IMG/VR virus record: IMGVR_UViG_3300010883_000503
Location: 1 to 23,392 of that record
DNA: 23,392 bases
From: a virus
Strand: one strand, 5' to 3'
The position numbers and the translations under genes are program-made. Of this stretch, positions 3 to 16,753 are shown one piece after another. Positions within the stretch are counted from its first letter, which is position 1, and the number at the start of each line of letters is the position of its first letter. The notes under the pieces were generated by a model, which saw nothing but the letters and a program-made list of their open reading frames with translations, did no database searches and was not told the origin of the DNA.

Positions 3-995
3 GGCGACACCGGCGGCTATGAGGGTAATACATTTGAAGATATCTTCGATGACTTCTTCGCCGGAATTAGAATTTGTTTTATACCCCCATATGGAATATT
101 CAGCGCCAAAATCACGGTCGGCACCGCCGAAGACGCGGACCCGGCCCCGGGAGTCTCGAAGGGCAAGGGCGCATCGACGGCATCGATTGCTGCCTCACGC
201 GTATTTAACGACTATGATCTCACGGAGTTTATTGGCAATGAATTCAGTAGTGCCTCCGTAATCCGTCATCGAGCCTTTCATCACGAACCGGGCGAGTACT
301 CGATCGTCGATAACCGCGCCCCCCAACGCGCCATCCCCATAGTTTCGGCCGAGAAGTCGTACAAAGGCAAGGACGCGTACACCGAGTTCGCGGAACCAGA
401 AGGGTTCGGGACACTTAATTGGTTCAAGCCCGGAATGATAGACTGTATGATCGCCGAGTTAACCGCGAAGCCGGAATACAAGACATTGTTTGAATATTGT
501 TTCTCCTTTGCTCGCTTTAATTCAATTTGGGCAACATATACAATTAATGCGTTCCTTCCATCAATCGGCTCTGCTGATCCGGAGTACAAAAAAGTTAACA
601 CAATCGGCGGGCCTAAGTGGAAAGACAGAGATGAGATAGATGATCCAGATGCTGATGAACCCACGGGCGATTCGTCTAATGCCGATGAATTTGGCGGAGT
701 TGGCACCGGCAACGACGGCTGGATTGCTAAGCCCACAGAGGCCGGCGGCGGTAAGCCCGTTACTTTCACCCCCGGCTTCAGAGGTTGGGATAGGAAGACT
801 TTCAATCGCTCGAAGAAGTTCGCAAGAATCTTATTTAATACTTCTTATAAGGGCAGTGATAACGAATATGAGAAGGACAAAGGCGGAGCGAAAGCTGATA
901 GAAAGAGACTCCGTAATACCACCAACTTGGATCTTGGCTTTGGATGGCTCTTTAAAAAGAGGCAAGTTCCTAAGCCTCCGGAAGAATGTGACTAA
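3..995 (+). CDS. Putative virion structural protein, C-terminal part (5' truncated)
   Basis: The reading frame is open from base 3 to a TAA at 993-995, giving the last 330 residues of a longer protein; no start is visible. An internal ATG at 435 exists, but the frame upstream is open and protein-like, so I do not use it. The visible part starts with an acidic/aromatic stretch (FEDIFDDFFAGIRICFIPPY), has a probably helical segment around residues 150-190 (KTLFEYCFSFARFNS), then an acidic Asp/Gly-rich low-complexity stretch near residues 210-250, and ends in a Lys/Arg-rich tail. No catalytic motif is apparent. It lies 22 bp upstream of the gp25-like gene on the same strand, so a baseplate or tail role is likely from context. 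I do not recognise the family firmly; the segment resembles C-terminal regions of large structural proteins I recall from marine phages, which is memory and not a search result. Confidence 0.75.
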   Translation, partial: GDTGGYEGNTFEDIFDDFFAGIRICFIPPYGIFSAKITVGTAEDADPAPGVSKGKGASTASIAASRVFNDYDLTEFIGNEFSSASVIRHRAFHHEPGEYSIVDNRAPQRAIPIVSAEKSYKGKDAYTEFAEPEGFGTLNWFKPGMIDCMIAELTAKPEYKTLFEYCFSFARFNSIWATYTINAFLPSIGSADPEYKKVNTIGGPKWKDRDEIDDPDADEPTGDSSNADEFGGVGTGNDGWIAKPTEAGGGKPVTFTPGFRGWDRKTFNRSKKFARILFNTSYKGSDNEYEKDKGGAKADRKRLRNTTNLDLGFGWLFKKRQVPKPPEECD

Positions 996-1001
996 TTAGT
1001 A

Positions 1002-1008
1002 AAGGAGG
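1002..1008 (+). promoter_or_regulatory. Strong Shine-Dalgarno site for the gp25-like gene
   Basis: AAGGAGG ends 9 bases before the ATG at 1018. It is the best ribosome binding site in the window and fixes the start of the gp25-like gene. The other genes have weaker sites or depend on overlap with the gene before. Confidence 0.75.
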
Positions 1009-1017
1009 AGAATATAA

Positions 1018-1473
1018 ATGTCTATTGGATTTGGACCGAGCTTGCCGCTCATGCGTTCTGATAATGATGGGTATTATGCCATGCATAAGGTTGTTGTTGC
1101 CGAGATAAAGGAGGATTTCAAGACCTTGTTAAAGACCAACCCCGGCGAACGCGTCATGGATTCTAACTTTGGCATCGGAATTCGCAGATATCTTTTCGAA
1201 CAGAATGTTCAGCAAACGTGGGCTGACATAGACGCCAGAGTCCGCAGCCAAGTAAAGACCTATATTCCGGCCATTAGAATTAATAGTATCGAATTTATCG
1301 CTGCCGACAATGCCGAAGGCGTACACGAAAACCATCTAGGCATAAGAATAGATTTTACGATTGTTCCATTAAAGGTAAGGGAAACCTTCGATATACCTAG
1401 GTCTTCGACCGGTGGGACCAATATCGTAGAATCTTCCAGCAAGGCCTTGAGCCCATCAGCCACAGCGCTGTAA
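1018..1473 (+). CDS. gp25: Baseplate wedge protein, T4 gp25-like (GPW/gp25 family)
   Basis: This is a 151-residue protein, slightly longer than T4 gp25 (about 132 residues). The family signature is clear: a helix near residues 21-42 (MHKVVVAEIKEDFKTLL), then GERVMDSNFGIGIRRYLFE at about residues 43-62, then a helical segment leading to IPAIRINSIEF and a final beta strand (IDFTIVPLK). In T4 and related contractile systems, gp25 joins gp6 and gp7 in the wedge and resembles the sheath protein handshake domain, helping to start sheath assembly. The lysozyme name often attached to the family is historical; I see no reason to predict enzyme activity. The last 25-30 residues (Ser/Thr-rich) exceed the family core. 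The start is fixed by AAGGAGG 9 bases upstream. The gp6-like gene follows after 118 bp, which supports the assignment. Confidence 0.9.
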   Translation: MSIGFGPSLPLMRSDNDGYYAMHKVVVAEIKEDFKTLLKTNPGERVMDSNFGIGIRRYLFEQNVQQTWADIDARVRSQVKTYIPAIRINSIEFIAADNAEGVHENHLGIRIDFTIVPLKVRETFDIPRSSTGGTNIVESSSKALSPSATAL

Positions 1474-1591
1474 AGCTCGCTCATACCCTAAGATGCCAAA
1501 ACTGTGTTGGCACAGTCGCTTCACAGCACACACAATAATGTGTTATTTAAACTGAAACATAAACTATTTATTAGAGGCAGGAAACAAGCGC
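1474..1591 (+). promoter_or_regulatory. Only sizeable intergenic region, with small hairpins
   Basis: This 118-bp gap separates the gp25-like and gp6-like genes; all other gaps are 22 bp or less. Two overlapping, mutually exclusive hairpins can form: TGCCAA (1494-1499) with TTGGCA (1507-1512), loop 7; and ACTGTG (1501-1506) with CACAGT (1511-1516), loop TTGG. A third small stem pairs ACACA (1530-1534) with TGTGT (1539-1543), loop ATAA. None is followed by a clear U-tract, so a classic terminator is not supported. An AT-rich stretch (1541-1573) precedes the gp6-like ribosome site (AGGA, 1579-1582), so a promoter, RNA-processing site or translation-control element is possible. I cannot identify a promoter consensus with confidence. 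Confidence 0.4.
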
Positions 1592-3388
1592 ATGCAAAAA
1601 AAGAATATCCCAATTAAATATACTAGTAGAGACTTCGACTCGATCAAGGCCGATTTAGTCCAGCATATCAAGAGATATTATCCTGATACTTTTAAGGATT
1701 TTAGCGACGCGTCCTTTGGATCGATTATGTTGGATGCAGTTTCCTATGTTGGCGACATTATGTCGTTTTACTTGGATTACCAAGCAAACGAGTCTTTCCT
1801 CCCGACTGCCATAGAATATAACAATCTTATAAAACTGGGAAAACAACTTGGGTACAAATTTACTGGCATTCCTTCCTCGGTAGGGCTAGCTTCTTTTTAC
1901 ATTGTTGTTCCTGCCAATAATGTCGGCTTGGGTCCCGACACAAGTTATTTACCGATCCTTAAAAAGGGGAGCCAATTTTCTTCAACGAGTGGCGTGGGGT
2001 TCTTGCTGGATGAAGACCTTCGGTTTGACCATCCTTCGAATGAAGTTATCGCCGCGAAGATAAATTCTGATACTGGTGTACCAACTTTTTATGCGGTTAA
2101 GGCCTATGGAAAGGTTTCTTCTGGCAATATTATAACAGAAACGATTACTGTCGGGGAATATGAAAGATTTAAGAAGATAAAATTAGCTAATGCTGGTGTT
2201 ACGGAGGTTGTATCTGTTTTCGACTCCGCAGGCAATGAGTACTCTGAGGTGAACTATCTTTCACAAAATGTTATCTATAAAGATATCACCAACTCTAGGG
2301 CCTCTTCTAAGGACGACGTTCCTGCCATCCTCCGGCCATTTGTGGTGGCTAGGAGATTTGTGGTCGACAATATCGGAGGCCGCTCATATCTACAGTTTGG
2401 ATACGGCTCAGAAAGCGAGCTTAGCGCCCCTCCTGTTGTTGACCCTATTGATATAGCATTGTCGGTCCACGGCCGCAAACACTCCACGGATGATGCTTTT
2501 GATCCATCCAAGTTGTTAGAGACCGACAAATTTGGTGTTGTTCCCTCCAATACAACCCTGACAGTTACTTATCGAATTAATAATTCAAGAACTAATAATA
2601 TCGCCATCGGCGCCCTGTCGAAAGTTGTAAATCCAATTTTTTCTTATAATAATCCGCTGAACATCAGTATATCTACCGCTAGCGGAGTTAATTCATCTTT
2701 GGAGGTCTTTAACACTGACCCGATCGTCGGCGGAGCAACACTTCCATCTTCCCCCGAGTTAAAAACTAGAATCCTAGATACGTTCCCCACTCAGAACCGA
2801 GCCGTGACCTCCAATGATTTTAAGGCCATGGTATACCAAATGCCGGCCAAATATGGCGCCCTTAAGAGGGCCGCCGTCATAAGGGACCCAGATTCCTTTA
2901 AAAGAAACTTAAATCTTTATGTTTTGGCCGAGGACTCTAACGGAAAGCTGATTGCTCCAAATAGCCTTCTTAAAGAAAATTTAAAGTTTTGGATTAATAG
3001 ATTTAAGATGATACACGATACAATCGATATTTTGGATGCTAAGATAATTAATTTAGGTGTTAGATTTAGTGTTGTGGCAGATTCCGATCTTAATAAATAT
3101 GATGCCCTTGCCGCAGCAAAAAAAGCGATTGAACTGCGCTACTCAGAGCCTCTCAATATAGGTGAGCCCTTTTATTTAGCTGATATCTATGGCGCCTTGA
3201 ATGACGTGAGAGGAATTCTTGATACAACTAAGGTTGAATTATTTTTACGCTCCGCCGGCGCGTATTCTACTACAATTTTTAATTTTGATGAAGCCATGTC
3301 TGCCGACGGGAGATACCTTGTTTGTCCGAAGAATGTGGCTTTTGAAATAAAATACCCCAGCGTCGACATAGAGGGTTCGGTGACATAA
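1592..3388 (+). CDS. gp6: Baseplate wedge protein, T4 gp6-like (baseplate J family)
   Basis: A 598-residue protein (T4 gp6 is 660). The N-terminus has the gp6 hallmark IKYTSRDFDSIKADL (residues about 8-22), then the helical block FSDASFGSIMLDAVSYVGDI and FYLDYQANESFLP (about 37-71). The middle is beta-rich. The C-terminal third has the baseplate-J-type pattern: DTFPTQNRAVTSNDFKAMV, then KYGALKRAAVIRDPD, a helical FWINRFKMIHDTIDILDAKI, and a final domain with EPFYLADIYGALNDVRGILD. In T4, gp6 forms the inner ring of the baseplate and, with gp7 and gp25, the core bundle of each wedge. The ATG at 1592 is preceded by AGGA 9 bases upstream and gives the complete N-terminal motif. The gene order gp25-gp6 followed by a protein with a gpI/gp7-like segment matches a conserved wedge module. 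No missing region or frameshift is seen. Confidence 0.92.
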   Translation: MQKKNIPIKYTSRDFDSIKADLVQHIKRYYPDTFKDFSDASFGSIMLDAVSYVGDIMSFYLDYQANESFLPTAIEYNNLIKLGKQLGYKFTGIPSSVGLASFYIVVPANNVGLGPDTSYLPILKKGSQFSSTSGVGFLLDEDLRFDHPSNEVIAAKINSDTGVPTFYAVKAYGKVSSGNIITETITVGEYERFKKIKLANAGVTEVVSVFDSAGNEYSEVNYLSQNVIYKDITNSRASSKDDVPAILRPFVVARRFVVDNIGGRSYLQFGYGSESELSAPPVVDPIDIALSVHGRKHSTDDAFDPSKLLETDKFGVVPSNTTLTVTYRINNSRTNNIAIGALSKVVNPIFSYNNPLNISISTASGVNSSLEVFNTDPIVGGATLPSSPELKTRILDTFPTQNRAVTSNDFKAMVYQMPAKYGALKRAAVIRDPDSFKRNLNLYVLAEDSNGKLIAPNSLLKENLKFWINRFKMIHDTIDILDAKIINLGVRFSVVADSDLNKYDALAAAKKAIELRYSEPLNIGEPFYLADIYGALNDVRGILDTTKVELFLRSAGAYSTTIFNFDEAMSADGRYLVCPKNVAFEIKYPSVDIEGSVT

Positions 3389-3389
3389 A

Positions 3390-5912
3390 ATGGCTATTAA
3401 AAGATATATTGCTAACGCTGATACAACTATAACTAATGCTTACCGTGCAAACTTAAGAACTCGCGGAACAGGTGCCAATATGGGCGCCTCGGATATTCTG
3501 GAAACCTTTTCAATCTATGGTCAAGCTTCTGGAAGTACCGGCCTTTCCTCAGAACTTTCAAGAATTCTGATAAAATTCCCAGTAACCGACATGTCAACGG
3601 ATCGTACAAATAGCGCAGTCCCGGCATCTGGAAGTGTTAAATGGGTCTTGAGGATGTACAACGCCGAACACGGCCAGACATTGCCAAGAGACTTTACTTT
3701 AAACGTGTATCCGGTATCTAAAGATTGGGAAGAGGGCACTGGTCTCGATATGGAAGAGTATACAGATCTTACCGATGATAAGGCCGGCACCAATTGGATA
3801 AATGCAAATAGGAATTATACCGCTGCTACTGCGACATTTGTAGGAACTGCTGACTTGGACGATGCAAGTGGCACATCTTTGATCTTGGTAAATGCTGATG
3901 CATCAACTGTAACATTTACTACGGACCCCACTCTCAATTTCGGTGATGTCACCGCCGACACTGGCGACGCAGCGGCCACAGCGACAATTGTGGGAACTGC
4001 TGCTTTGGATGACGAAAACGGTACAAATATGATATTGACAAATGCTGATGGGTCAACTGTAACCTTCCACACCGACCCTACTAAGAACTTTGGTGATACT
4101 TCTTCCGACGGAGGCGATCATATATGGGAAGTCAACACCAGAGACATTAGTGGTGGTTCCGAGGTTAGGAAGGCTACGCAGGCCTTCTGGATTGCATGCA
4201 AAGCCGCCATCGACGCCGGCGAACTAGACATGTCGATTAGTCCCACTAGTTTCGCGGGCACTGAAACATCATTCACATTAACTCAGACTACTGCTGGGAC
4301 TTCTGGCAATACAGCAATAACTTTAATAACTGGCATGACAGCCAATGGCGAAACTACTTTTACTGGTGGTATGGGACAACGGTGGAGAGTCAACACCAAA
4401 GACATCAGTGGAGGCAGTGAAGTCAGGAAGGCTACACAGGCATTCTGGATTGCATGTAAAGGTGCAATAGGCGCCGGCGAATTAGACATGACGATTAGTC
4501 CCACTACTTTCGCGGGCACTGAAGAATCGTTTACGCTAACTCAAACTACTACTGGGACTTCTGGCAATACAGCAATAACTTTAATAACCGGTATGACGGC
4601 CAATGGTGAAACTGCTTTTACTGGTGGTGATGATGGCAAGTGGAGCACAGTTGGCGGGGATTTTTTGGTGTCCGGCAGCGGTGAAAATGATGCAAAAGCA
4701 TATACATTTAATTTTCCGAAGGGCCACGAGGACTTGGAACTTGACATATCAGAGTTGGTAGAAGAATGGATCGATGGCGGCTCTATATCAAACTATGGTT
4801 TGGGAATTTTTCTGTCGGGCACACAAGAGGCTTACTTTTCTGGCTCAGGCCTTACAGTGCAAGGTGGCGACTTCGGTACCGGAGCCCCCGGGCTCGCGAT
4901 TGATCAAGGCTCCTATACGGCAACTCCAGCCGCCTCTGGCAGCGTCCCTTTTAATATAACTGGCTCTACAAAATCCTATTATACTAAGAAATTTTTTGCC
5001 CGCGGCTCAGAATTCTTCTTCTCGCGCCCATGTATTGAAGCGCGCTGGGACGACACTGTGAAGGACCAACGCGGCCAATTCTATTTTAGTAGTTCTTTGG
5101 CAACTGATACTGAAAACTTAAATACCCTTTACTTGTATAACGTGGTCCGCGGAAAATTAGCAAACATACCCAAAGTTGGCACTAGCGCCATCTATGTTTC
5201 ATTGTTCTCCGGGTCAGATTTTGGGGCTGACAGCACCAAGATGTCCGGTGGCTTTCAAAACGAACCGCCGGCGAAATTAATTCAAAGCGTTCCAATTGAA
5301 ACTGCCAACATCTGCACAGGCCTAGACACCGCCACGGGCTCGAATGTGTCGACAGGCATATATAAGTGTGATGTTACTCTGACCGCCTCCACCGAAAAGG
5401 CCCTGACGGTCATTCATGATGTTTGGCACTCGGCCGACTTGGACGCCTCAGGCAATGAGACTTATTTTACCGGCACTATTCGGCCGCTTCACCTAAGTGC
5501 CTCGCAGTTTGATCCCACAGACACCTATGTAACGACGATCACCAATTTAAGAAATTCTTACTTTAACGAAGAAAAAGCTAGATTTAGGATGTTTGTCCGG
5601 CCAAGAAATTGGAATCCAAATATTTATAACAAGTCAACGACAGCAATCCAAAATACAATTGTTAATAGTGGGTCTTATAGGGTTTACAGGACCATTGATG
5701 AATTGAACGTCGTAGCATATGGCACCGGAAGCACGGAAACTAGTTTGCGTCACACGCACCTTTCTTATGATAATCAGGGGAATTATTTTGATCTCGATAT
5801 GAAATTGTTGGAGACCGGCTATTCTTACGCTTTAAAGTTTGCCTATTACAATGATTCTATAAGCACTTGGGTGGAACAACCTGAGATATTTAAGTTCAGG
5901 GTTGAAAAATGA
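3390..5912 (+). CDS. Structural protein with a DNRLRE-like domain split by repeats
   Basis: An 840-residue protein starting 1 bp after the gp6-like stop, with only a weak GAGGG (3371-3375) upstream, so translation is probably coupled. The N-terminal half matches the DNRLRE pattern known from secreted and surface proteins: SELSRILIKFPV (54-65), VYPVSKDWEEGTG (106-118), GTNW (133-136), then WSTVGGDF (418-425) and LDISELVEEWIDGG (from 451). GTxW and WxTxGGD are normally close together; here about 269 residues of duplicated Thr/Ala/Gly-rich sequence (about 145-413) separate them. The C-terminal half (about 500-840) is beta-rich, has SGS-type linkers and ends with YALKFAYYNDSISTWVEQPE, resembling Ig/Fn3-like phage structural domains. 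No enzyme motif is seen. Its place between the gp6-like gene and the giant wedge gene suggests a baseplate or fibre part. The DNRLRE assignment is by eye and needs a profile or structure check. Confidence 0.8.
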   Translation: MAIKRYIANADTTITNAYRANLRTRGTGANMGASDILETFSIYGQASGSTGLSSELSRILIKFPVTDMSTDRTNSAVPASGSVKWVLRMYNAEHGQTLPRDFTLNVYPVSKDWEEGTGLDMEEYTDLTDDKAGTNWINANRNYTAATATFVGTADLDDASGTSLILVNADASTVTFTTDPTLNFGDVTADTGDAAATATIVGTAALDDENGTNMILTNADGSTVTFHTDPTKNFGDTSSDGGDHIWEVNTRDISGGSEVRKATQAFWIACKAAIDAGELDMSISPTSFAGTETSFTLTQTTAGTSGNTAITLITGMTANGETTFTGGMGQRWRVNTKDISGGSEVRKATQAFWIACKGAIGAGELDMTISPTTFAGTEESFTLTQTTTGTSGNTAITLITGMTANGETAFTGGDDGKWSTVGGDFLVSGSGENDAKAYTFNFPKGHEDLELDISELVEEWIDGGSISNYGLGIFLSGTQEAYFSGSGLTVQGGDFGTGAPGLAIDQGSYTATPAASGSVPFNITGSTKSYYTKKFFARGSEFFFSRPCIEARWDDTVKDQRGQFYFSSSLATDTENLNTLYLYNVVRGKLANIPKVGTSAIYVSLFSGSDFGADSTKMSGGFQNEPPAKLIQSVPIETANICTGLDTATGSNVSTGIYKCDVTLTASTEKALTVIHDVWHSADLDASGNETYFTGTIRPLHLSASQFDPTDTYVTTITNLRNSYFNEEKARFRMFVRPRNWNPNIYNKSTTAIQNTIVNSGSYRVYRTIDELNVVAYGTGSTETSLRHTHLSYDNQGNYFDLDMKLLETGYSYALKFAYYNDSISTWVEQPEIFKFRVEK
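3825..4124 (+). repeat. Tandem A units (A1, A2) in the DNRLRE-like gene
   Basis: Two in-frame 150-bp units, 3825-3974 and 3975-4124, encode ATATFVGTADLDD... and ATATIVGTAALDD... followed by NADxSTVTFxTDPTxNFGD. By eye they are clearly homologous but more diverged at DNA level than the B units that follow. They look like the N-terminal half of the FTGG-ended module family found in the next gene. Confidence 0.8.
4125..4640 (+). repeat. Tandem B units (B1, B2) in the DNRLRE-like gene
   Basis: Two 258-bp units, 4125-4382 and 4383-4640, measured from Trp codon to Trp codon; the next Trp (4641) starts the resumed host domain. Both encode VNTxDISGGSEVRKATQAF, FTLTQTTxGTSGNTAITLI and end in FTGG. 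The proteins differ at only about 7-8 of the roughly 75 core residues, so the duplication is fairly recent. This half matches the C-terminal half of the modules in the giant gene (KAAI..., TLTQ...GN, FTGG). Confidence 0.85.
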
Positions 5913-8900
5913 GCATAAAAGACCTATTTGTAAAAAAGGCAACTAAAGTTTTATCCTCTAAGAATCTTCAAGATTTAGAACTTGAGGTTGAGTCTGAAAG
6001 AAATATCTTTGAGACCCGTTCTGATCGAGAGCGGTTTGTTCCCAATGTGAATTTTAATCTACCGGCCTCTTTCGCAAGATATGGGTCCGCCGAGGAATAT
6101 TACCGCAAGAGCATCGAACGTATCCACGACGAGTATCCTTTCGACGGCACTTTTGCGGAAAAGAAAGAGTTTCTCAACGAATCAACTTATTTAGATTTAC
6201 ACATTTTAGATGAAAGATACCCAAAGACAAATGGGTATATTACTTTATCATCCGATGGGTGGTCGACTTCTACTGAAACCGCCGCAGCAGCAGCGACTAT
6301 TACTATTGCCGTAGCTACGGTTGATGTTATTGGCTCCGGCGATGTTATTAGTCTGATCGCCACAGACGGAAGAACGATTACTTGTACGTTACAGGGCGTA
6401 GGGGGTACAACAACTTCCGCAGCAACAGATGGAAATGTCACATCCGCGACTTATGCAAGCAGCACGGATAATACTTTACAGGCCACGGCTCAGGCTGTTT
6501 CCATTGCAACAGCTATAAACAATAATAACTTCTTTACTGCCACTAACTCTGCCAATGTTGTTACTGTTACGCAGGCAGTTCCGGGAGTAACCGGCAATAC
6601 GGCTATCACAATTACAGAGTTGGGTTCCGCTGGTATGTCAAAAACAGACTTTACAGGCGGAAGCGGAGGCGCCTCGGACATCTCCTCAGAGTACGGCGCG
6701 CCAGCAACGGGATCGTTTGAATACATCAGAATTACTGGTAGCCTCATAATTGACGAGATAGGGCCCTCAATAACAGATATAACCAACGATCCGTTGCCAG
6801 ATGCCTTCGGAGATCTAAAAACTAAAAGGATTGGTTCTTTTGCTAACATATACGAAGCGGACATATACGCCACAGGTGGTGTCTTGGCCTATGGCAGAAA
6901 AGGCTCCAGAGATTCAAACCTGAAATTTGATTTAGAGAATGACGGCGTAACTGTAGAGTTTTGGTTGAAGAAAAATGAGTTTCTGCCTGATCTGACAGAA
7001 AGAGAGGTTATTTTTGACCTCTGGAATAAAGAGGGGCCAGAAGAGGATACATATGGCAGGCTTCGACTGGAACTAACCGGTTCTGAAGACGGCACAAATC
7101 CGTTTTTGCTCACTTGTAGATCTGGTGCCTATGGCGACGGGTCTTCCGGAGGATTCTCGTCAGTATCGGTCGCGCCCTCCACAATTACAACTGGAAATGT
7201 TGCCGACAATAAATGGCACCACTACGCAGTATCATTAGCTAATTCGGGGACGTATTCGTCTCCCGGGTCAGCGACTGGAATAATAGTTAAATTTTATCGC
7301 GACGGCGACTTGTTGAACAACTTCGTTACGGGGTCAATGATAGGGCACGTCACCGGCTCTCTAGTAGCTCATATCGGGGCCCTTATCGCCCCGGTGTCCG
7401 CCAGCGCTCCTTATGCTGGAGAGGGGTGGGGCAAACTGTCCGGCTCCCTAGACGAGTTTAAATATTGGAAGGCTAAAAGAGATTCAAAAGAAATTGGAAG
7501 GCACTGGTGGTCTCAAGTTGGCGGAGGAGTTAACTCTGATATAGCGAATGCCGAATTGGGCGTTTATTATAAGTTTAACGAAGGTATTGTTGGCAGTTCT
7601 TCCTATGATTCGGTTGTTTTGGACTATTCTGGCCGATCTGCAAATGGCAAATGGATCGGATATCCCGGCTCTTCAGCCAGAAACACTGGGTCCGCAATTG
7701 TAGACTCAGGATACGCCAGTTCGGAACCAAAAGACCCTATTATTTATTCCGTTCACGACGATGTTAAAAATCTAAAAGAGCAGCTAATAGCTTCTGGTAG
7801 CGAACACGATATAAAAAACGGTTCAAGATTCATAAACCTTTTACCCTCTTTCATGATAGAGGAGGACGAAGAACCCGGTCTAGGCGAGGGCCAGCTCAAG
7901 GACCTCACAAATGTGATCGCCAGCTACCTTGATAGTTTACATGTTCAAATCGAAGCGCTGCCAAGAATTCAAGACGCCACATACATAAGTGCCAGCTATA
8001 AGCCCGCACCTTTTATGGATCGGGTACTAGAAGGCAAGGGATTCGTTGCCCCAGAATTGTTCCCAGACGCTGAAATAATAAATCAAATTTTGAGCCGCGA
8101 CGAAGATCGAAATTTTGGTCTTAAAATTCACAACATCAAAAATTTAATTTATAAGAACGTTTACAACAACTTGGCTTATATCTACAAGTCTAAGGGAACA
8201 GAAAAATCTTTTCGTAACTTAGTAAGGTCTTTCGGCGTCGATGATGAGCTTGTAAAAATTAACTTATATGGCGATAACGTAACTCATCTGTTGCGAGACA
8301 ACTATAGATCCACCGCGGCAAGCAAGAACTATGCTGACTTTGCGCACCCCGATCGCTTTACAGGCTCCGTGTATCAGGCCGCGGCCACTTATGCTCCCTA
8401 CGCCGGCGGCCCTATGTCGGACACATCCGATGTTTTTATTTCTGGTTCCGACAACGCTAGCGGCAGCCTTTCGACAACTGCGGAATGTGAAGCGATTTTT
8501 CCTATAATCCCAAGATTAACAGAGAGCCCCGCGGGCGCACATTACGTTGTGCCCTTTTTGTCCGCTTCATTATTTGGCTGGCACACTCCCAGCGAGGCGA
8601 ATTCGGACAACTGGGCCGCAGCAGCAAGTGATTATGGCGTCGAGGTCTACGCGGTCCGCCCAAAAATAGATTCGAGGGATGCTTATTTTTTGATTCGGTC
8701 GCGACCCGGATATAGCGCCGGCCACTCCTCCGCCATCGCCGACTCAGAGATTACATCTAGTGTTTTTAAGGATGTTTTTGAAAATAAAAAATGGAATTTT
8801 TCTGTCTCGTTTAAGCACTCTAGGGATCCCGGCGGCCATGATTTTGTTTCGGGATCCAGCGACTCCACCGGCAGTATTGATATGGCCTTTTATGGCGTCA

Positions 8901-11900
8901 ACATGGTACAGGATGTTGTGGTAGACGAGTTTTATCTGACAGCAAGCGATGCTAGTCATCTTTATTTATCACAAGATCGTAGGTATTATATCGGCGCCCA
9001 CCGCGAGAATTGGACCGGCACCGTTCAGGAGAAGGCGTATGCTAGGATTTCCTCTTTGCGCCACTGGCAGAGTGAGTTGGGCACAGGATCGGTTCGCGCA
9101 CACGCCAGAGATCCGCTTAATTATGGCTCAAAAAATCCCTATAGCAAGAGCGCGCAGTTCTCTACGGTACATATGGGAGGACTTACAGCTAGCGTTCATG
9201 TGCCCGAGATAGAAACTCTGGCGCTTCACTGGGATTTTCACAGAGTAACCGGATCGGATGACAGTGGAGAATTTTTTGTTGACGATGCATCTTCTGGCTC
9301 CGTGGCGTTGAAAAACGAGAATAGGTATTCGGACTCAATGAACTCGGCGCTGAATAATATTATAGCTACAAGATATATGGGCAAAGGCATAGGCTTCGGG
9401 GATTCCAGCAGCGCTGCAATTAGTAAGGAATATGTGCCCTCCGCTCAGCAAGTCCTGCCAGAATCTCTCGCTAGTGATGATATGGTAAATGTTCTTGATT
9501 TTGATGATGAGACCTTTACGAGAGAGACAAGACCAGTAGATTATTTCTTCGCGTTCGAAAAGAGCATGTATCAGACAATTTCGGAAGAAATGCTAAAGAT
9601 GTTTGCTACAATTGTTGAATTTAATAATTTGATCGGTGATCCTGTTTACAAGTATCGCGGCGAATACAAAGCTATGAAAAAGCTTCGCAATCTTTTCTTT
9701 GAGAAGATTGGCAACACGCCGAATCTAGATCAATATGTCTCTTATTATAAGTGGATTGACGACGCTCTATCTGAAATGCTCCTTGAACTTGTGCCGGCTT
9801 CTGCGAACACGTCTGACGGCTTAAGAAATATGGTTGAAAGCCACATTCTTGAGAGAAGTAAATATAGGCACAAATTCCCGACTCTAGAGATGAAGGCCCC
9901 CGAAGATCAGAATCTCTCGGGTAATCCATTCTTCCCGGCCGGCCCCAGCGGATCGATCCACGGCCGTCGCTTTGAAGCCATCCCCGCATCCCCGGCCACA
10001 GAACTTATTCCTTGGGAGTTTGCGCACGCCCCCGTTGTAGAAAAAGCCACTGCGACGATAACTGTGGCGGACGGGGACGCCGACAGCGGTATGGCAGAAA
10101 AAGAAAGCATGACAGTTACTTCAACGGATGGGACAGCAAAGGTTTATGTGATTGTCGACGACAACGCAACAACTGTCGCCACGGGCGCAGCATTGGCCAC
10201 CACTTCCGACACCGGCGCTGAACAAGCCGGAGAGAAAGCAACCGCGACAATTACTGTTATTGATTCTAGTTCTCCTCCCGGCGTACCTTTCATTGGAGAG
10301 GGCGACACTATCGTGTTAATCTCGACTGATGAGACAACAGTAACCCTCACAATGCAGGGTACAGGTGGCTCTACTACTTCTTCAGGAACTAGTGGCGCGA
10401 CATTAACCGCCAAGACTTTATCCGCAGGCAGCTATGCTAATTCTACTCTTCATGCGACAGCGCAGGCGGTTGAGATTAGAACAGCAATCAACCATCACAC
10501 AAAATTTAGTGCAACCAATAGTACTAATGTAATAACCATAGTTCAAGCAACAGCCGGCACCGCTGGCAACACCACACTCACAATAACAGAACTTGGCGCG
10601 ACCGGAATGTCAAAAACTAACTTCACCGGCGGAACTGAGGTTACTGCGAATAGCGTTGCAGTTGCTATTAACACAACTGGGACTGCCGCCTCTCAAAATG
10701 ACTTCTTGGTTCAACTTAAGGCAGCAATAGAAAGTGCCAACGGACACAAAGGCAAGATTATAGTTTCATCCGTTCCCACAGAGGCCAACGGCGCCCAAAC
10801 AATTACTCTAACGCAAAAGCGCCGCGGCAAAGCCGGAAACAATACTATCACTGATGACATAAGTCAAACTACGATTGTTGGATTTACTGGTGGCACCGAG
10901 GGTATATCGTCTAAAAAGGCTTGGTGGCATCTCCGCGCAGAGAGAGACGTGCATCACTTCTCGTCCGAGTGGCTCGCAGACACCAGCAGTGCCTCCGACA
11001 CAGAACAAAACAAAGAAGAGATTCGAAAAACTTATGTTCGCAGGAGAAGTTTTGTCCCCGGCTTTAATGTCGGAAGCGCCTTAGCACAGAAATATAAATC
11101 ACAGTTTCACAACATTCAAGATAATGCACTTCCCTATAGGTTGTCGGCTTATACAGACGGCGCTGTTGTAGAGCAAGCAAAACACAGAAATTCCACATCT
11201 AACCTAAGGACTTTTAAGGGTGGGTCGAACACTGCCGCGAATAAGAAGCCTGATATCGTATTTTCGTCCATCAAATTTGGTACCACCGACACGTTATCTT
11301 TTAACAATATAAGCGAGGACTCAAAAGCTCTTAGATTGAGGGAAGAGGATTTTATAAATGAAAAGATTAGAAAGAACTTTGGTGTAAAGGATGTCGCCAC
11401 TAAGGGCGACCGGTATTCCCCATTTAGTCTGTTCAAAACAGATGTTGCACAAGGCTACAACAAAACCTTAACTAGTAATTTGGGTACCGCCGCCGATATC
11501 TCCAATTATCATGACGATGTGGTCGGTCCCAACTACGAGGTGCCCCTTCAAGGGCCGTTTACTGAAAAGCACGTCGGCGGCCGAGGCCATCGTCACGCCG
11601 AAATTAATAGATATGACTCTTCAAAGCAGGGCACAAATAATATAGATGGCAAGAAAGACCGAATAGAGGCTTGGAAGCTTGATACTTCAACCTCGGGCGA
11701 AATAAAGTTAGTTCATCAGGATGTTAACAAACCTCGTGCCACCCTTGTAAGAGAAGAACACGCAAAAAGACCAGTTAATATTAGAAATATAAGAACTAGT
11801 GATGAGAGCGGAGTTGATACTAGCCTAAGACTAGCGAGGGCGGGCAACTATCGTAACGACTATGAAATAATAAGTCTTGCAAATCGGTCTGCTGCTAAGA

Positions 11901-14900
11901 GAGCTTTTATTAAGCAAGAAGGATTTGAAGAAGATTCTCGTACTAGTCTGTTAGTAGATGGGTTTGCTGATATTACAAAGCCCGATTTCTCTATTTCTGG
12001 CGCTGCCGGCCGAACCGACTTTGCGTTCATCCAAAGATTCTCCGCACCCGGCGGCCCAGAAACCTCTGGGGACTCTCGCGGAGGCCCGGGCCTTGATTAC
12101 CACAATTCAGAATATTCTCCCTATAACTCACTAAACTACAGAAATCTTACAGTTAGGCTGCCTCTGAGAACCATGCTTAGTGCTTCTGGTACAAATCACG
12201 GATTAAAAGCAGGCACCGCCCCGTCTTCAGCCGACTATTCTGGTGTTGCCTCTTTTCACAGAACTCACCCCAATAACTCGTATCGAGTCAAGCCTACTTC
12301 TACCGGAGTCACCGATCCCGACACCGAGACTATAACGGTTAGTGATAACTTTTATATTTCTCGGGCCATACCCCAATCTGATATACAATATGCTTGGATT
12401 TCGGCTTCTGCTGTAACATATGATAACATTGGGGTAGCTAGTAATAACACGAATAATACAAGAATGCCCCTTAGTTATTTGCCGACAGATGGATTAATAA
12501 CGGGTCTCGGCACTCCCTCTTCGGCACTTTTGGTTGTTAGCGCAAGTGATGCCGGTTCGTATGTGAATTCAGATGGCGACCGTGTTTGGGTGGCCGACAA
12601 ATCAAACGCCAGCGCATTTGATAATTCGCAATTCTTGTATACTGATTTTATAGGATTAAATCATCATATAGTAGAAGACGTTACGTCAGGATCTTGCGAG
12701 ATGGGCCGCCCCGCAGGCAGTGCATTAGCCACTTATATAAATGGTACCGGCGACTCATCAGAAGGAAACTTCATTCAATTACCTACTGCCACCGCAGCCG
12801 CCACAGCGACCATTACTATTGCCGTAGCCACAGTTGACGTGATCGGCTCCGGCGACATTATTAGTCTGATTACCACAGACGGAAGAACGATCACTTGTAC
12901 TTTGGGCGCAGTTGGAAGTACAACAACTTCCGCAGCAACAGATGGAAATGTCACATCCGCGACTTATGCATCAAGCACAGATAATACACTTCAGGCCACG
13001 GCTCAGGCTGTTTCCATTGCAACAGCTATAAATAGCAATAACTTCTTTGCTGCCACTAACTCTGCCAATGTTGTTACGATCACGCAGGCTGTCCCTGGCG
13101 CCCGCGGGAACACGGCCATTACAATTACAGAATTGGGTGCCGCCGGTATGTCAAAAACAGATTTTACGGGTGGAGCGGACGAGGCACAAATTTTGAACGC
13201 CCTTCTACTAAACAGGAACGGCCCTTATGGTTGGCCTTCTTGGAAACAGGTTCGAGCAGGACAGCACCCAATCAACAGGCTGTTGAGGCGCAACTCAAAG
13301 ATAGCAGTGAATAGTTCCACCGGCGAAAAAAGAATTATTGACGAAAAGGGCAAAGCTACTAGAATCTTCTTCGATCGCTTTGGGTCTACAAAGGTTTACA
13401 GAGAGCCGCCCATAACTTCTAAATATCATCCTATCGTGCAGGTTGTTGGGATTCGTACCGAGATAGGCGATGAGGAAACTGGCAAAACCAAGACTGTGTT
13501 AAGGCCTGTGCCGATTAAGAGTAGTTATGGCAACAATAAGGTTGTCTTTGCAAATCCGGATCTAAATGACTCCCACGGACACGAAATTAACACTCCTCAA
13601 CCTTATGACCGTATCAAAAAACTATATTTGGGGGAGAACGTCAACAGGGAGGCCAGCTCAGTCGACAGCTTAATAGAGCTTAGATATAAAGAAACGGTTT
13701 ACCCTGCCGAACAAAATGCTTATTTGGATAGGACTAGGAGAAGAATATCATTTACGAATAATTTCTGGCGTACTAACCGCTCAGATAGGAATACGAGCCG
13801 CACTAGCTTCTCGTCAAACCTTACCTCAAGCGCTTGGTCCTTGGATGCGACAGAGACCTTCGCCGATACCATTACTGGTTCCACAGCGGGAATACTCTTA
13901 AACAACGTGTGCCAAATCCATAATGGAAGCAAGGGCAACCTCATAGCCGCCCCATATTATTCTCGGCTTCATATGTGCGAGTCAACAGCTTCCGTCCGGT
14001 CCGTGACCGGCCCACGGGCACAGTCTGGTTCGTTTGTCTCCGACCCGGATCATCTACTTCATAACGAGAACATGGGCAATATTGGGATTGGAGGCGGCCA
14101 TGCGCTATGGGAAGCCGGTTCACAAGCAGGATATATAGATGAAGCCGGTAGTTTCGTCGCTGACGCCAGAAATCCGGCATATGATTCATATGACGATTAT
14201 GTATTGGAATTGCGTTCCAAAAATATGGACATGTCCGTCGTTCCTGAATTTAGAATTAGTGAACATATTGATTATTATATGAATACACATGACGGTAACT
14301 TCCTCGCCAAGAATTCAAAATTTCTCACAATTTTTGGGGTTCCAAGTGGTTCGGACGAATCCCCGGCCAATAGCTCGGAGGCGGACTTCTTTAAAATCTA
14401 TAGCAATTCAGATTTTATGAAGCATTTTGACACAATCAAGAAAGATCACGAAACTATCGTTGAGCCATCAGAGATTAGTTTGTCATGTAAGGCTGTAGTT
14501 AGGTTTATGCCCTATAATGGTTTTTACCCGGCTGAAAGAACTGTCGATTTGGCAACACAATTCTCTAAATCAGTTGGCCCCTATATACAATATAATGGCT
14601 CCGATGCGGATAGCCATCCCAATATAAAATTTAGAAATATTTTAACACCTTTCTTCGCCCCCGGCATTATGTATAATACGATCAAATCTGGCATTGCTTG
14701 CGACTATCCCGTATACAATATGGGCAGCTCAGCCTTCCCGAAACGGATAGTTAATCCGGACGGCGTGAGCAGCAATGCCAAGACAAAATACTACGCATTG
14801 GGCACCAGCTCATATGGCACGAATGGTTACATCAGGGTACCTTTTGAAGATGTGATCCGGCCGTCTTTCCTAAAAGGCCTGAAGATTTTGGACAACGAGC

Positions 14901-16753
14901 CACACCCTAGTAGTTCACTTGATGTCACGGCCTCGTGGGGTGGCGAAACCGACAAGCTTTATGAAATGATGTCTAATAATTATCATGCTGCCGTACCCGA
15001 CTTTTTCTTGAGCGATGGAAACTTCACTACCCTATCTTCGGTACCGGAGTCACAATTCGAAAGTTTCGCAACGTCGAGTTATTATGGTATGCGCGTGAGG
15101 GTGAGAAAGAGTTATCATACTCCGCGCCCCCTAAACAATCGCTCAAAATTCCCAATGCCCCAAGATGTTCCCAGCGACAACAAAAATTATAATGTATATG
15201 AGTCATTTACAATGTATAGTCGCCCCTCCGCATTTGGCCCGCCCGTGGCCGGCCGGGTTGATATTGATACCTCCGTGGCCGCATCTCACGCGGACTATAC
15301 AGAAATTTTTGATAGCTTGACGGGAATAAACCCAGCCTTTACTCCTCCGTATTATGATGGCGAATGTTGGTTCGACATAGTGTTCCAAGCATCTAAAGAA
15401 AAGCACACACTGAGAGAAATATTTCAGACAGCTTCCGTCTTTTCCTTTCGCTTCGACCCAGATGGTATGCCCACTGGTTCCGCGGACCGACCATATGGGG
15501 AAGCGAACATTAATACCTTTTCTATGCAACTAACTTCTTCCTTTAACCTGTTTGGTATTGCCCCACTGAAGTCGGTAGAATTTGACGCTTCTGGCAACCC
15601 GAAGGTGGTTAAAGATGACTTTTCGGCCGATAACAATGTTTGGGTGATGCAACCCAAATTCGAGACCCCGATGTTGAACTTTAACGATCAGGGGACACAC
15701 GCGATTACCTCTTCTGCCGGCACCCTCACTCTTCCAAACGATGTGTCCGCGTCAGTGATGACGCCTCTAGGAATGTGGCACCAGTTTGGTACGATCCCAG
15801 ACTCTCCCGACAAGGGCATCTTTTTTGAGGTTAGCGATATAGAAGAAGAATGGCTTAGGAGTAGATTAAGCGATGGAGATGATTTTGTAGATGACATCTT
15901 CCCGGGCGTTGCAGAAAATGTTTACAACTCTGGTAAAGTGAAATCATTGTTAGACAAAGTTAAATTTAACAAACGGTCTAAGAGATTGGGGGGGCTAGCC
16001 AAGTCTAAGTCGGTCAGGGAAGCTGTCGTGGCGGTCCCCTTTGTTGTTCGCGATGGTAAGAGAAAGTTTTTCGAGATTCCAAAAGAGCAAATAGCCGCCG
16101 CCACAGGCAAGACTGGCCCAAAAGATCGTGAAGATTTGCCTAGGAGTTTTGTCCCCGGGAAATCAATTCTCTCTATGGTTAACAAAATGAAAGACTATGT
16201 TTTCCCGCCCCCGATGGATTTTATAACATACCCAGAAAAAGTTAAGCCTTTTGCAATGTACATTTTCGAGTTCGAACACGTTTTTGACCAAAATGACCTA
16301 TCTTATATGTGGCAAAATCTTATGCCAAAATCAGGCGTTCAAATTAAGGAAGCACAGGCTTCGATTTCGCATAAACTGTTGATAAATGAGTTGATGGGCG
16401 CCCAATCGTCTGTTAATGGGCAGACAATGCAGTCTAATTTACAATGGATGGTTTTCAAGGTTAAGCAACGCGCCCCAACTAATTACTTTGATAAGGTCAT
16501 CGGAAATAGTAAAGTGGCCGATAAGAGGTTTGATTTTGCCTTTGATGTTGAAAACAGGAGCGAAATTCCTGAGTTTAGTTATAACTGGCCTTATGATTTC
16601 TTCTCATTGGTTGAATTTGCCAAGTTAGATGCCGAGGTTAAATTTTCTAAAGAAGGGGACGAGCTTAGCACTTTAGACGAAAGCCAAATTTTAGAAAATA
16701 GTACTAGGAGCGATCCTCTTGTGGCGCCAAAAGAAGTAGTAAACAAGAAATAG
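5909..16753 (+). CDS. Giant 3,614-residue baseplate protein with gp7/gpI-like core
   Basis: The ATG overlaps the previous stop by 4 bases (ATGA), with AGGG at 5898-5901. Domains in order: module copy 1 (aa 129-251); LamG/concanavalin-A-like fold (about 345-530; VEFWLKK 349, KWHHYAVSL 435, GSLDEFKYWK 512); a P2 gpI/T4 gp7-like wedge segment (about 640-785) with INLLPSFMIEED (642) and YKSKGTEKSFRNLVRSFGV (759-777), like the KGT...L...G motif of tail protein I; a second LamG-like region (about 855-1130; YYIGAHRENW 1026, RISSLRHW 1046); a helical region (1224-1329) ending VESHILERSKYRHKFPTLE; nested modules (1380-1662); HVGGRGHRH (1888-1896); module copy 3 (2300-2422); LNALLLNRNGPYG (2429); and a long C-terminal region with FEFEHVFDQNDLSYMWQNLM (3453). 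T4 gp7 has 1,032 residues, so this is about 3.5 times longer. Role inferred: wedge scaffold carrying glycan-binding or decoration domains. The frame is continuous; no frameshift is seen. Confidence 0.85.
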   Translation: MSIKDLFVKKATKVLSSKNLQDLELEVESERNIFETRSDRERFVPNVNFNLPASFARYGSAEEYYRKSIERIHDEYPFDGTFAEKKEFLNESTYLDLHILDERYPKTNGYITLSSDGWSTSTETAAAAATITIAVATVDVIGSGDVISLIATDGRTITCTLQGVGGTTTSAATDGNVTSATYASSTDNTLQATAQAVSIATAINNNNFFTATNSANVVTVTQAVPGVTGNTAITITELGSAGMSKTDFTGGSGGASDISSEYGAPATGSFEYIRITGSLIIDEIGPSITDITNDPLPDAFGDLKTKRIGSFANIYEADIYATGGVLAYGRKGSRDSNLKFDLENDGVTVEFWLKKNEFLPDLTEREVIFDLWNKEGPEEDTYGRLRLELTGSEDGTNPFLLTCRSGAYGDGSSGGFSSVSVAPSTITTGNVADNKWHHYAVSLANSGTYSSPGSATGIIVKFYRDGDLLNNFVTGSMIGHVTGSLVAHIGALIAPVSASAPYAGEGWGKLSGSLDEFKYWKAKRDSKEIGRHWWSQVGGGVNSDIANAELGVYYKFNEGIVGSSSYDSVVLDYSGRSANGKWIGYPGSSARNTGSAIVDSGYASSEPKDPIIYSVHDDVKNLKEQLIASGSEHDIKNGSRFINLLPSFMIEEDEEPGLGEGQLKDLTNVIASYLDSLHVQIEALPRIQDATYISASYKPAPFMDRVLEGKGFVAPELFPDAEIINQILSRDEDRNFGLKIHNIKNLIYKNVYNNLAYIYKSKGTEKSFRNLVRSFGVDDELVKINLYGDNVTHLLRDNYRSTAASKNYADFAHPDRFTGSVYQAAATYAPYAGGPMSDTSDVFISGSDNASGSLSTTAECEAIFPIIPRLTESPAGAHYVVPFLSASLFGWHTPSEANSDNWAAAASDYGVEVYAVRPKIDSRDAYFLIRSRPGYSAGHSSAIADSEITSSVFKDVFENKKWNFSVSFKHSRDPGGHDFVSGSSDSTGSIDMAFYGVNMVQDVVVDEFYLTASDASHLYLSQDRRYYIGAHRENWTGTVQEKAYARISSLRHWQSELGTGSVRAHARDPLNYGSKNPYSKSAQFSTVHMGGLTASVHVPEIETLALHWDFHRVTGSDDSGEFFVDDASSGSVALKNENRYSDSMNSALNNIIATRYMGKGIGFGDSSSAAISKEYVPSAQQVLPESLASDDMVNVLDFDDETFTRETRPVDYFFAFEKSMYQTISEEMLKMFATIVEFNNLIGDPVYKYRGEYKAMKKLRNLFFEKIGNTPNLDQYVSYYKWIDDALSEMLLELVPASANTSDGLRNMVESHILERSKYRHKFPTLEMKAPEDQNLSGNPFFPAGPSGSIHGRRFEAIPASPATELIPWEFAHAPVVEKATATITVADGDADSGMAEKESMTVTSTDGTAKVYVIVDDNATTVATGAALATTSDTGAEQAGEKATATITVIDSSSPPGVPFIGEGDTIVLISTDETTVTLTMQGTGGSTTSSGTSGATLTAKTLSAGSYANSTLHATAQAVEIRTAINHHTKFSATNSTNVITIVQATAGTAGNTTLTITELGATGMSKTNFTGGTEVTANSVAVAINTTGTAASQNDFLVQLKAAIESANGHKGKIIVSSVPTEANGAQTITLTQKRRGKAGNNTITDDISQTTIVGFTGGTEGISSKKAWWHLRAERDVHHFSSEWLADTSSASDTEQNKEEIRKTYVRRRSFVPGFNVGSALAQKYKSQFHNIQDNALPYRLSAYTDGAVVEQAKHRNSTSNLRTFKGGSNTAANKKPDIVFSSIKFGTTDTLSFNNISEDSKALRLREEDFINEKIRKNFGVKDVATKGDRYSPFSLFKTDVAQGYNKTLTSNLGTAADISNYHDDVVGPNYEVPLQGPFTEKHVGGRGHRHAEINRYDSSKQGTNNIDGKKDRIEAWKLDTSTSGEIKLVHQDVNKPRATLVREEHAKRPVNIRNIRTSDESGVDTSLRLARAGNYRNDYEIISLANRSAAKRAFIKQEGFEEDSRTSLLVDGFADITKPDFSISGAAGRTDFAFIQRFSAPGGPETSGDSRGGPGLDYHNSEYSPYNSLNYRNLTVRLPLRTMLSASGTNHGLKAGTAPSSADYSGVASFHRTHPNNSYRVKPTSTGVTDPDTETITVSDNFYISRAIPQSDIQYAWISASAVTYDNIGVASNNTNNTRMPLSYLPTDGLITGLGTPSSALLVVSASDAGSYVNSDGDRVWVADKSNASAFDNSQFLYTDFIGLNHHIVEDVTSGSCEMGRPAGSALATYINGTGDSSEGNFIQLPTATAAATATITIAVATVDVIGSGDIISLITTDGRTITCTLGAVGSTTTSAATDGNVTSATYASSTDNTLQATAQAVSIATAINSNNFFAATNSANVVTITQAVPGARGNTAITITELGAAGMSKTDFTGGADEAQILNALLLNRNGPYGWPSWKQVRAGQHPINRLLRRNSKIAVNSSTGEKRIIDEKGKATRIFFDRFGSTKVYREPPITSKYHPIVQVVGIRTEIGDEETGKTKTVLRPVPIKSSYGNNKVVFANPDLNDSHGHEINTPQPYDRIKKLYLGENVNREASSVDSLIELRYKETVYPAEQNAYLDRTRRRISFTNNFWRTNRSDRNTSRTSFSSNLTSSAWSLDATETFADTITGSTAGILLNNVCQIHNGSKGNLIAAPYYSRLHMCESTASVRSVTGPRAQSGSFVSDPDHLLHNENMGNIGIGGGHALWEAGSQAGYIDEAGSFVADARNPAYDSYDDYVLELRSKNMDMSVVPEFRISEHIDYYMNTHDGNFLAKNSKFLTIFGVPSGSDESPANSSEADFFKIYSNSDFMKHFDTIKKDHETIVEPSEISLSCKAVVRFMPYNGFYPAERTVDLATQFSKSVGPYIQYNGSDADSHPNIKFRNILTPFFAPGIMYNTIKSGIACDYPVYNMGSSAFPKRIVNPDGVSSNAKTKYYALGTSSYGTNGYIRVPFEDVIRPSFLKGLKILDNEPHPSSSLDVTASWGGETDKLYEMMSNNYHAAVPDFFLSDGNFTTLSSVPESQFESFATSSYYGMRVRVRKSYHTPRPLNNRSKFPMPQDVPSDNKNYNVYESFTMYSRPSAFGPPVAGRVDIDTSVAASHADYTEIFDSLTGINPAFTPPYYDGECWFDIVFQASKEKHTLREIFQTASVFSFRFDPDGMPTGSADRPYGEANINTFSMQLTSSFNLFGIAPLKSVEFDASGNPKVVKDDFSADNNVWVMQPKFETPMLNFNDQGTHAITSSAGTLTLPNDVSASVMTPLGMWHQFGTIPDSPDKGIFFEVSDIEEEWLRSRLSDGDDFVDDIFPGVAENVYNSGKVKSLLDKVKFNKRSKRLGGLAKSKSVREAVVAVPFVVRDGKRKFFEIPKEQIAAATGKTGPKDREDLPRSFVPGKSILSMVNKMKDYVFPPPMDFITYPEKVKPFAMYIFEFEHVFDQNDLSYMWQNLMPKSGVQIKEAQASISHKLLINELMGAQSSVNGQTMQSNLQWMVFKVKQRAPTNYFDKVIGNSKVADKRFDFAFDVENRSEIPEFSYNWPYDFFSLVEFAKLDAEVKFSKEGDELSTLDESQILENSTRSDPLVAPKEVVNKK
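6293..6661 (+). repeat. Module copy 1 (123 codons) in the giant gene
   Basis: Encodes ATITIAVATVDVIGSGD... to KTDFTGG (aa 129-251), rich in Thr, Ala and Asn with GNTAITITELG near its end. It has exactly the same length (369 bp) as copy 3 at 12806-13174 and shares identical DNA of 53 bp (6405-6457 with 12918-12970) and 41 bp (6479-6519 with 12992-13032). It follows LSSDGW and precedes a Gly/Ser linker, so it appears to be inserted in a loop of the N-terminal region. Confidence 0.9.
10046..10894 (+). repeat. Outer module, interrupted by another module (copy 2 outer)
   Basis: The N-terminal part (10046-10231, aa 1380-1441) encodes ATATITVADGDADSGMAEKE... to DTGAEQAG. The C-terminal part (10634-10894, aa 1576-1662) encodes NSVAVAINTTGTAASQNDFL, QLKAAIESANGHKGKI, TLTQKRRGKAGNNTI and ends FTGG. 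Together these read as one module of the family, but a complete second module (10244-10633) lies between them. The 87-residue second part is almost the same size as the 86-residue B unit of the preceding gene. Confidence 0.8.
10244..10633 (+). repeat. Inner module nested in the outer module (copy 2 inner)
   Basis: This 390-bp, 130-codon module runs from ATITVIDSSSPPGVPF to KTNFTGG (aa 1446-1575). It resembles copies 1 and 3 throughout (ATAQAVEIRTAIN, GNTTLTITELGATGMSKTNF), but is more diverged at DNA level. The sequence EKATATITV occurs at the start of both outer and inner modules, marking the nesting boundary. Confidence 0.8.
12806..13174 (+). repeat. Module copy 3 (123 codons) in the giant gene
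   Basis: Encodes ATITIAVATVDVIGSGD... to KTDFTGG (aa 2300-2422). It is 369 bp like copy 1 and lies exactly 6,513 bp downstream of it, a multiple of three, so the two are in the same frame. It sits just before LNALLLNRNGPYGWPSWKQ, a segment that looks like an ordinary conserved part of the host protein. Confidence 0.9.

Follow-up and report, generated by a model that had tools for sequence, protein, structure and literature searches.

Nested in-frame modules in a giant virion-type protein of an uncultivated virus

The locus and its genes

The DNA analysed was IMG/VR record IMGVR_UViG_3300010883_000503, a metagenomic record of an uncultivated virus; "the window" refers to this whole stretch of 23,392 nt. 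The gene order in the window began with gp25-like and gp6-like baseplate wedge genes, followed by P0007, P0002 and then further large genes. The cultured-phage matches of the gp6-like baseplate neighbour were distant only. P0002 (5909..16753, + strand) was an open frame encoding a virion-type protein of 3,614 aa, which was the host of the nested modules described below. Homologues of P0002 were found in many viral contigs and contained a LamG-like region, and zero Pfam or PHROG matches were obtained for P0002. P0007 (ORF 3390-5912, 840 aa), just upstream of P0002, carried a second nest. At the end of the window, P0005 (21094-23391) encoded a large protein without any family match, in which a short acidic repeat, TYETDTYETDT, was noticed.

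P0002 also contained two single, uninterrupted modules of the S1 type, at 6284..6661 and 12797..13174 (both + strand). The loop homologous to that of the first module was empty in three other contigs (L079, L066, and L043). The second module resembled the first at the DNA level, with 86% identity over 300 nt between 6270-6569 and 12783-13082, which lay 6.5 kb apart, and a 40-nt exact word was common to both modules. Judged by this DNA likeness, the two singles appear to reflect either recent copying or gene conversion inside the gene.

A complete S1 module inside a split S4 module

The nest in P0002 occupied positions 10040-10894 on the + strand. The left half of an outer module of subfamily S4 (10040..10231; EKATATITVADG...DTGAEQAG) was followed by a complete inner module of subfamily S1 (10232..10633; EKATATITVIDS...FTGG) with a full-length profile match, and then by the right half of the outer S4 module (10634..10894; TEVTANSVAVAINTTG...FTGG). 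The two outer halves aligned with the left and right parts, respectively, of five uninterrupted S4 modules. The outer module of about 150 aa was split, and the inner module of about 133 aa lay in frame in the gap. An earlier note, made from the sequence alone, had read this region as a beta-rich module inserted whole into a loop of a homologous module with the reading frame kept. Apart from small shifts, the motifs lay where that note had placed them: ATATITVADG at 10046-10075, DTGAEQAG at 10208-10231, a second EKATATITV from 10232, an inner FTGG ending at 10633, NSVAVAINTTG from 10649, and an outer FTGG ending at 10894. The inner start given as 10244 had to be moved; with the shared "EK" counted, the outer module began at 10040 and the inner module at 10232. 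The resumed outer half began at 10634, with TEVTA ahead of NSVAV.

The ORF 5909-16753 was open through the whole nest and across both junctions, which agreed with a preserved frame. The membership of both modules in the same family was borne out by hhalign profile-profile comparison (S1 vs S4, E 4.1e-6), and the other subfamily pairs gave E values of 6.8e-5 (S3 vs S4) and 3e-5 (S1 vs S3). By profile, S1, S3, and S4 were members of one superfamily. The inner module was 51-52% identical to the two single copies elsewhere in P0002, and its identity to free-standing modules of L031 and L003 was 84-89%. Complete free-standing S1-type units were present in L003, L007, and L038 as well as at 6284-6661 and 12797-13174 of the window. 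No second case of the exact S1-in-S4 composite was found beyond this window. The longest exact word common to the left half, the inner module, and the right half was 9 nt.

Relatives of the outer module were retrieved with a spliced query in which the two outer halves had been joined. Five relatives (L123, L124, L022, L125, and L126) carried uninterrupted S4 modules with 55-73% identity to the outer parts in the window, and their alignment with the window showed one clean gap, coinciding with the inner module. The earlier note had asked whether DTGxxxAG is normally continuous with xSVAVAIN, the motif beyond the inner module; DTGxxxAG was joined to IAVAIN via a short linker in all five. The pattern that would have refuted the proposal, outer halves always occurring as separate units, was not seen. 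The reading that a whole module had entered, in frame, a loop of one of its homologues was supported, and nests recurred in other subfamilies, at other sites, and on other contigs.

An S3 module inside an S3 module in P0007

The nest in P0007 consisted of the left half of an outer S3 module (3822..3971, + strand; profile positions 1-50), a complete inner S3 module (3972..4370, + strand; profile positions 1-133, E 6e-78), and the right half of the outer module (4371..4628, + strand; profile positions 51-133). The DNA repeats at 3822-4628 stood in the order left, left, right, and right half. An S3-in-S3 nest was also present in L024 and L025 (the same gene), L023 (a different gene), and L026 (the giant protein's LamG loop), and single S3 modules were found in L027, L028, L029, L110, L111, L116, L118, L119, and L121. 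In the S3 singles, LNF on the left went together with W[RK] on the right (4/4), and KNF on the left with other residues (7/7; Fisher p 0.003). This grouping was chosen after the alignment had been viewed, and the p value is a guide only. All five S3 nests had LNF in the outer left half and WR in the outer right half, around an inner module of the other type. The outer halves were tied together because they kept in the nests the LNF/WR pairing of the singles.

The DNA identity in P0007 was 86% between the right halves vs 71% between the left halves, and this excess similarity of the right halves is not predicted by pure insertion without later gene conversion. The inner right half of L024 was clearly different and had been kept, from which it was inferred that the P0007 copy in the window may have undergone gene conversion after the insertion. 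As a separate observation, TTWGDEEEF occurred in both the inner and the outer right halves of the nest in L025, and a TTV..IA insert occurred in both right halves of the nest in L026; such shared lineage-specific residues suggest that nested copies may evolve in concert. In L030/L122, three S3 left halves stood in succession up to the contig end, which probably opens a nest at least three levels deep, with its closing halves off the contig.

Recursive nesting in other viral contigs

The module profile was run over 120 loci, and the nests became readable as balanced brackets. The deepest arrangement, in L031, consisted of fragments covering profile positions 2-40, 2-40, and 2-91, a complete module, and fragments covering 93-128, 40-128, and 40-128, corresponding to four levels within 531 aa, whose breakpoints fitted pairwise (40/40, 40/40, and 91/93). 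In L013/L047 and L057-L063, the order was 2-91, complete, and 91-128, and the whole nest lay inside a further unit ending in FTGG. L054 contained a nest of three levels, and L009 contained one module within an S4-like module. Among neighbouring copies there was one tandem pair, and the remainder were nested or fragment pairs. Breakpoints were complementary within two residues with p about 5e-6 under an independent-breakpoint null, which was a simple one, with related cases collapsed to five events. Nests were found again on separate contigs: the P0007 type on five, the four-level type on two, and the L057-L063 type on seven.

Filled and empty sites

Flank-joined queries were used to find module-free homologues of the host loops, and homologues without the module were found at many of the same loops. 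The loop of the 10040-10894 nest was empty in L056, L098, and L002; in L113/L027 it contained one S3 module. At the LamG loop, the window, L045, L082, and L066 had no insert, L031 had the four-level nest, L026 the S3 nest, and L050 a module of another subfamily. The closest filled and empty pair (L064 vs L130) had 88% identical host DNA and a 363-nt in-frame difference with short new linkers. The inner module of the window and its copy in L003 were 83.8% identical in DNA at different sites of the same giant protein, and the host proteins around them were only 33-43% identical. By these comparisons, the module behaves as an in-frame domain that is mobile and has moved between phages.

No target-site duplication was found in 67 insertions, and no inverted-end signal, and hence no terminal inverted repeat, was found in 75 modules; the modules thus lacked these two hallmarks of a transposon or a palindromic in-frame element. 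A TGG target motif, prompted by NYTGG at the L051/L085 sites, was also rejected, as it was not significantly enriched upstream of the 67 insertions (p 0.057). T[GSA]G was mildly enriched upstream of insertions (16% vs 7%, p 0.007, uncorrected for eight tests). No signature of the moving process was detected, and it was inferred that the modules move by ordinary recombination of phage genomes without a dedicated transposase.

Host proteins of the modules

The hosts that could be named were tail sheath proteins (L041, L081, and L107, the sheath identity being backed by PDB matches to gp18), a baseplate wedge protein (L110), a virion structural protein (L029), and a tail-spike-like protein (L048). 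All identifiable host genes were virion genes; many further hosts had no PHROG family match. The gp18-like sheaths of L041 (ORF 241-3774), L081, and L107 were 900-1,200 aa long, with the modules inserted in the variable middle. An overlap that L041 seemed to show between the module and the tail-sheath profile did not hold up, as the module alone had no match to a sheath family and the host part did. By analogy with other accessory domains on virions, the modules were inferred to be surface decoration, which may aid adsorption or adhesion.

Structure models

S4 rows were misplaced on the inner module in alignments A4, A7, and A8, and alignment A6, with the inner relatives excluded, was the one behind the structure model of the 10040-10894 nest. 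The resulting model (pLDDT 39) was too poor for the packing of the outer halves to be read. In the model of the P0007 nest (pLDDT 74.8, pTM 0.51), the order of strands and helices was readable and was the one expected of a nest, and the contacts were not readable. The left outer strands were followed by a complete strand-helix-strand module and then by the right outer strand, helix, and strands. The description "beta-rich" needed amending for one long helix in the second half of each module. The packing of the outer halves as one domain, with the inner module emerging from its loop, was inferred without contact-level structural proof.

Entries for the flagellar cap protein FliD, domains D2-D3, predominated among the best PDB matches to the P0007 model, and these were weak (best E 0.013, TM-score 0.19-0.25); a likeness of the predicted nest to FliD is suggestive only. 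Among viral models, related regions occurred, for example, in a baseplate J-like protein from an uncultured phage (E 1.2e-7). Searches of the PDB by sequence gave weak matches only, to tail sheath gp20 (E 0.68) and HslJ (E 0.18).

Comparison with known systems

No Pfam or PHROG family covered the module. The module was not found in 50,697 cultured-phage records searched with four queries, and two pattern-seeded scans of bacterial genome contigs, in which only fairly close relatives were detectable, gave no confirmed relative. None of seven virus records matched the Flagellin_IN profile (Pfam PF07196) at E <= 10. Pfam Ig models gave nothing over the cut-off; one of 11 module members reached E 0.024, and the full proteins gave no match at E <= 0.1. 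Nesting of phage modules was not described in the literature searched, although this does not prove that no description exists.

Inteins are recognised by a Cys or Ser as the first residue, a C-terminal His-Asn, and a Cys, Ser, or Thr at +1. The module did not fit an intein, as it began with (A)TATIT and ended in FTGG, with no Cys/Ser start and no C-terminal His-Asn. Insertions inside insertions are known from twintrons, but twintrons are spliced out of RNA and inteins out of protein; unlike twintrons and nested inteins, the modules had no splicing motifs and stayed in the open frame. Rickettsia palindromic elements also insert in frame into coding genes and are shorter inverted-repeat DNA, whereas the modules were whole domains without inverted ends.

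In FliD, D2 and D3 are both beta-rich head domains, with D3 inserted into a loop of D2 (PMC8533109). The likeness to the module nests lies in a domain inserted in a domain loop; the fold match was weak and the Flagellin_IN profile was unmatched. To our knowledge, the nesting in FliD is a fixed architecture and involves no movement of a module among loops and genes. Ig-like accessory domains occur on tailed-phage virions (Fraser et al. 2006, as cited in PMC10684548), and the BACON repeats of crAssphage are another case of accessory virion domains (PMC6949934). The shuffling of phage proteins is concentrated in receptor-binding and baseplate proteins (PMC10684548), and the term "nested" was absent from that paper. 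The modules resembled Ig-like and BACON domains as promiscuous accessory virion domains that spread between phages. In the cases known to us, Ig-like and other accessory domains are fused at an end or repeated in tandem. Domain insertion in itself is not new; the surprising part is a recursive, moving family.

Interpretation

The analysis established a split outer module, a complete inner module, empty and filled sites, movement between phages, and recursion to four levels. We consider it very probable that the nest is a domain-in-domain product of a promiscuous in-frame mobile module of tailed phages. A module of about 115-150 aa would run from N-terminal strands beginning at [A]TATIT through a strand and a long helix to additional strands that end in FTGG. 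Loops of virion proteins (sheath, baseplate wedge, the LamG-containing giant, and others) would gain, and probably also lose, whole modules. Within the module, the permissive loops would lie at profile positions about 40-57 and about 91. The module would itself be an acceptor of modules, repeatedly, because its placement in loops is tolerated and it has permissive loops of its own.

The main rival concerns the function of the module, not the anatomy of the nest: a selfish element that persists as it is harmless in frame, without helping the virion. The many sites, the lack of an obvious target, the frequent self-insertion, and the movement independent of the host gene would all suit such an element, and this reading, although unlikely, keeps some weight. 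It is opposed by the absence of terminal inverted repeats and target duplication, and by ends conserved as the protein motifs TATIT and FTGG with variable third codon positions. The nameable hosts, moreover, were all virion proteins, as expected of selected surface domains, with the reservation that enzyme loops were not specifically covered.

Far less support remained for separate tandem duplications of the left and right halves, by which the left, left, right, right order would arise without insertion. The unequal DNA identities in P0007 give the two pairs of halves different apparent ages, as this reading would have it, but the different inner right half of L024 suggests instead that the window copy underwent gene conversion afterwards. 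The outer and inner modules at 10040-10894 belong to different subfamilies, each occurring intact and single elsewhere, and separated outer halves keep the linkage of intact singles. The breakpoints were complementary at two positions and at up to four levels. For the 10040-10894 nest, half-duplication was largely refuted by the five uninterrupted S4 relatives, and it is very improbable overall. An assembly artefact, in which reads of different module copies were joined, might be feared in a metagenomic record with several similar copies per gene and a 40-nt word common to the two P0002 singles, but it is scarcely credible for a nest open in frame at both junctions and of a type of arrangement found on separate contigs, and, with no shared word longer than 9 nt, a repeat-mediated chimera made by the assembler is unlikely.

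A split module is a caution for repeat finding and domain annotation, as it resembles unrelated half-repeats and has no Pfam or PHROG model. The insertion of a domain into a homologous domain is usually viewed as rare and fixed; here it was frequent and multi-level, and the modules have moved between viruses, which allows a comparison of empty sites, intermediates, and products. The family is a natural system in which to learn what loops will take up an entire domain, how a chain with nested domains folds during synthesis, and how phages enlarge a virion surface. Whether the modules form a self-inserting mobile class that builds outgrowing or branched structures on sheath, baseplate, and tail proteins is evenly balanced in our judgement; if they do, nesting and not tandem duplication would be their normal mode of amplification, through a recombination process that has not been described.
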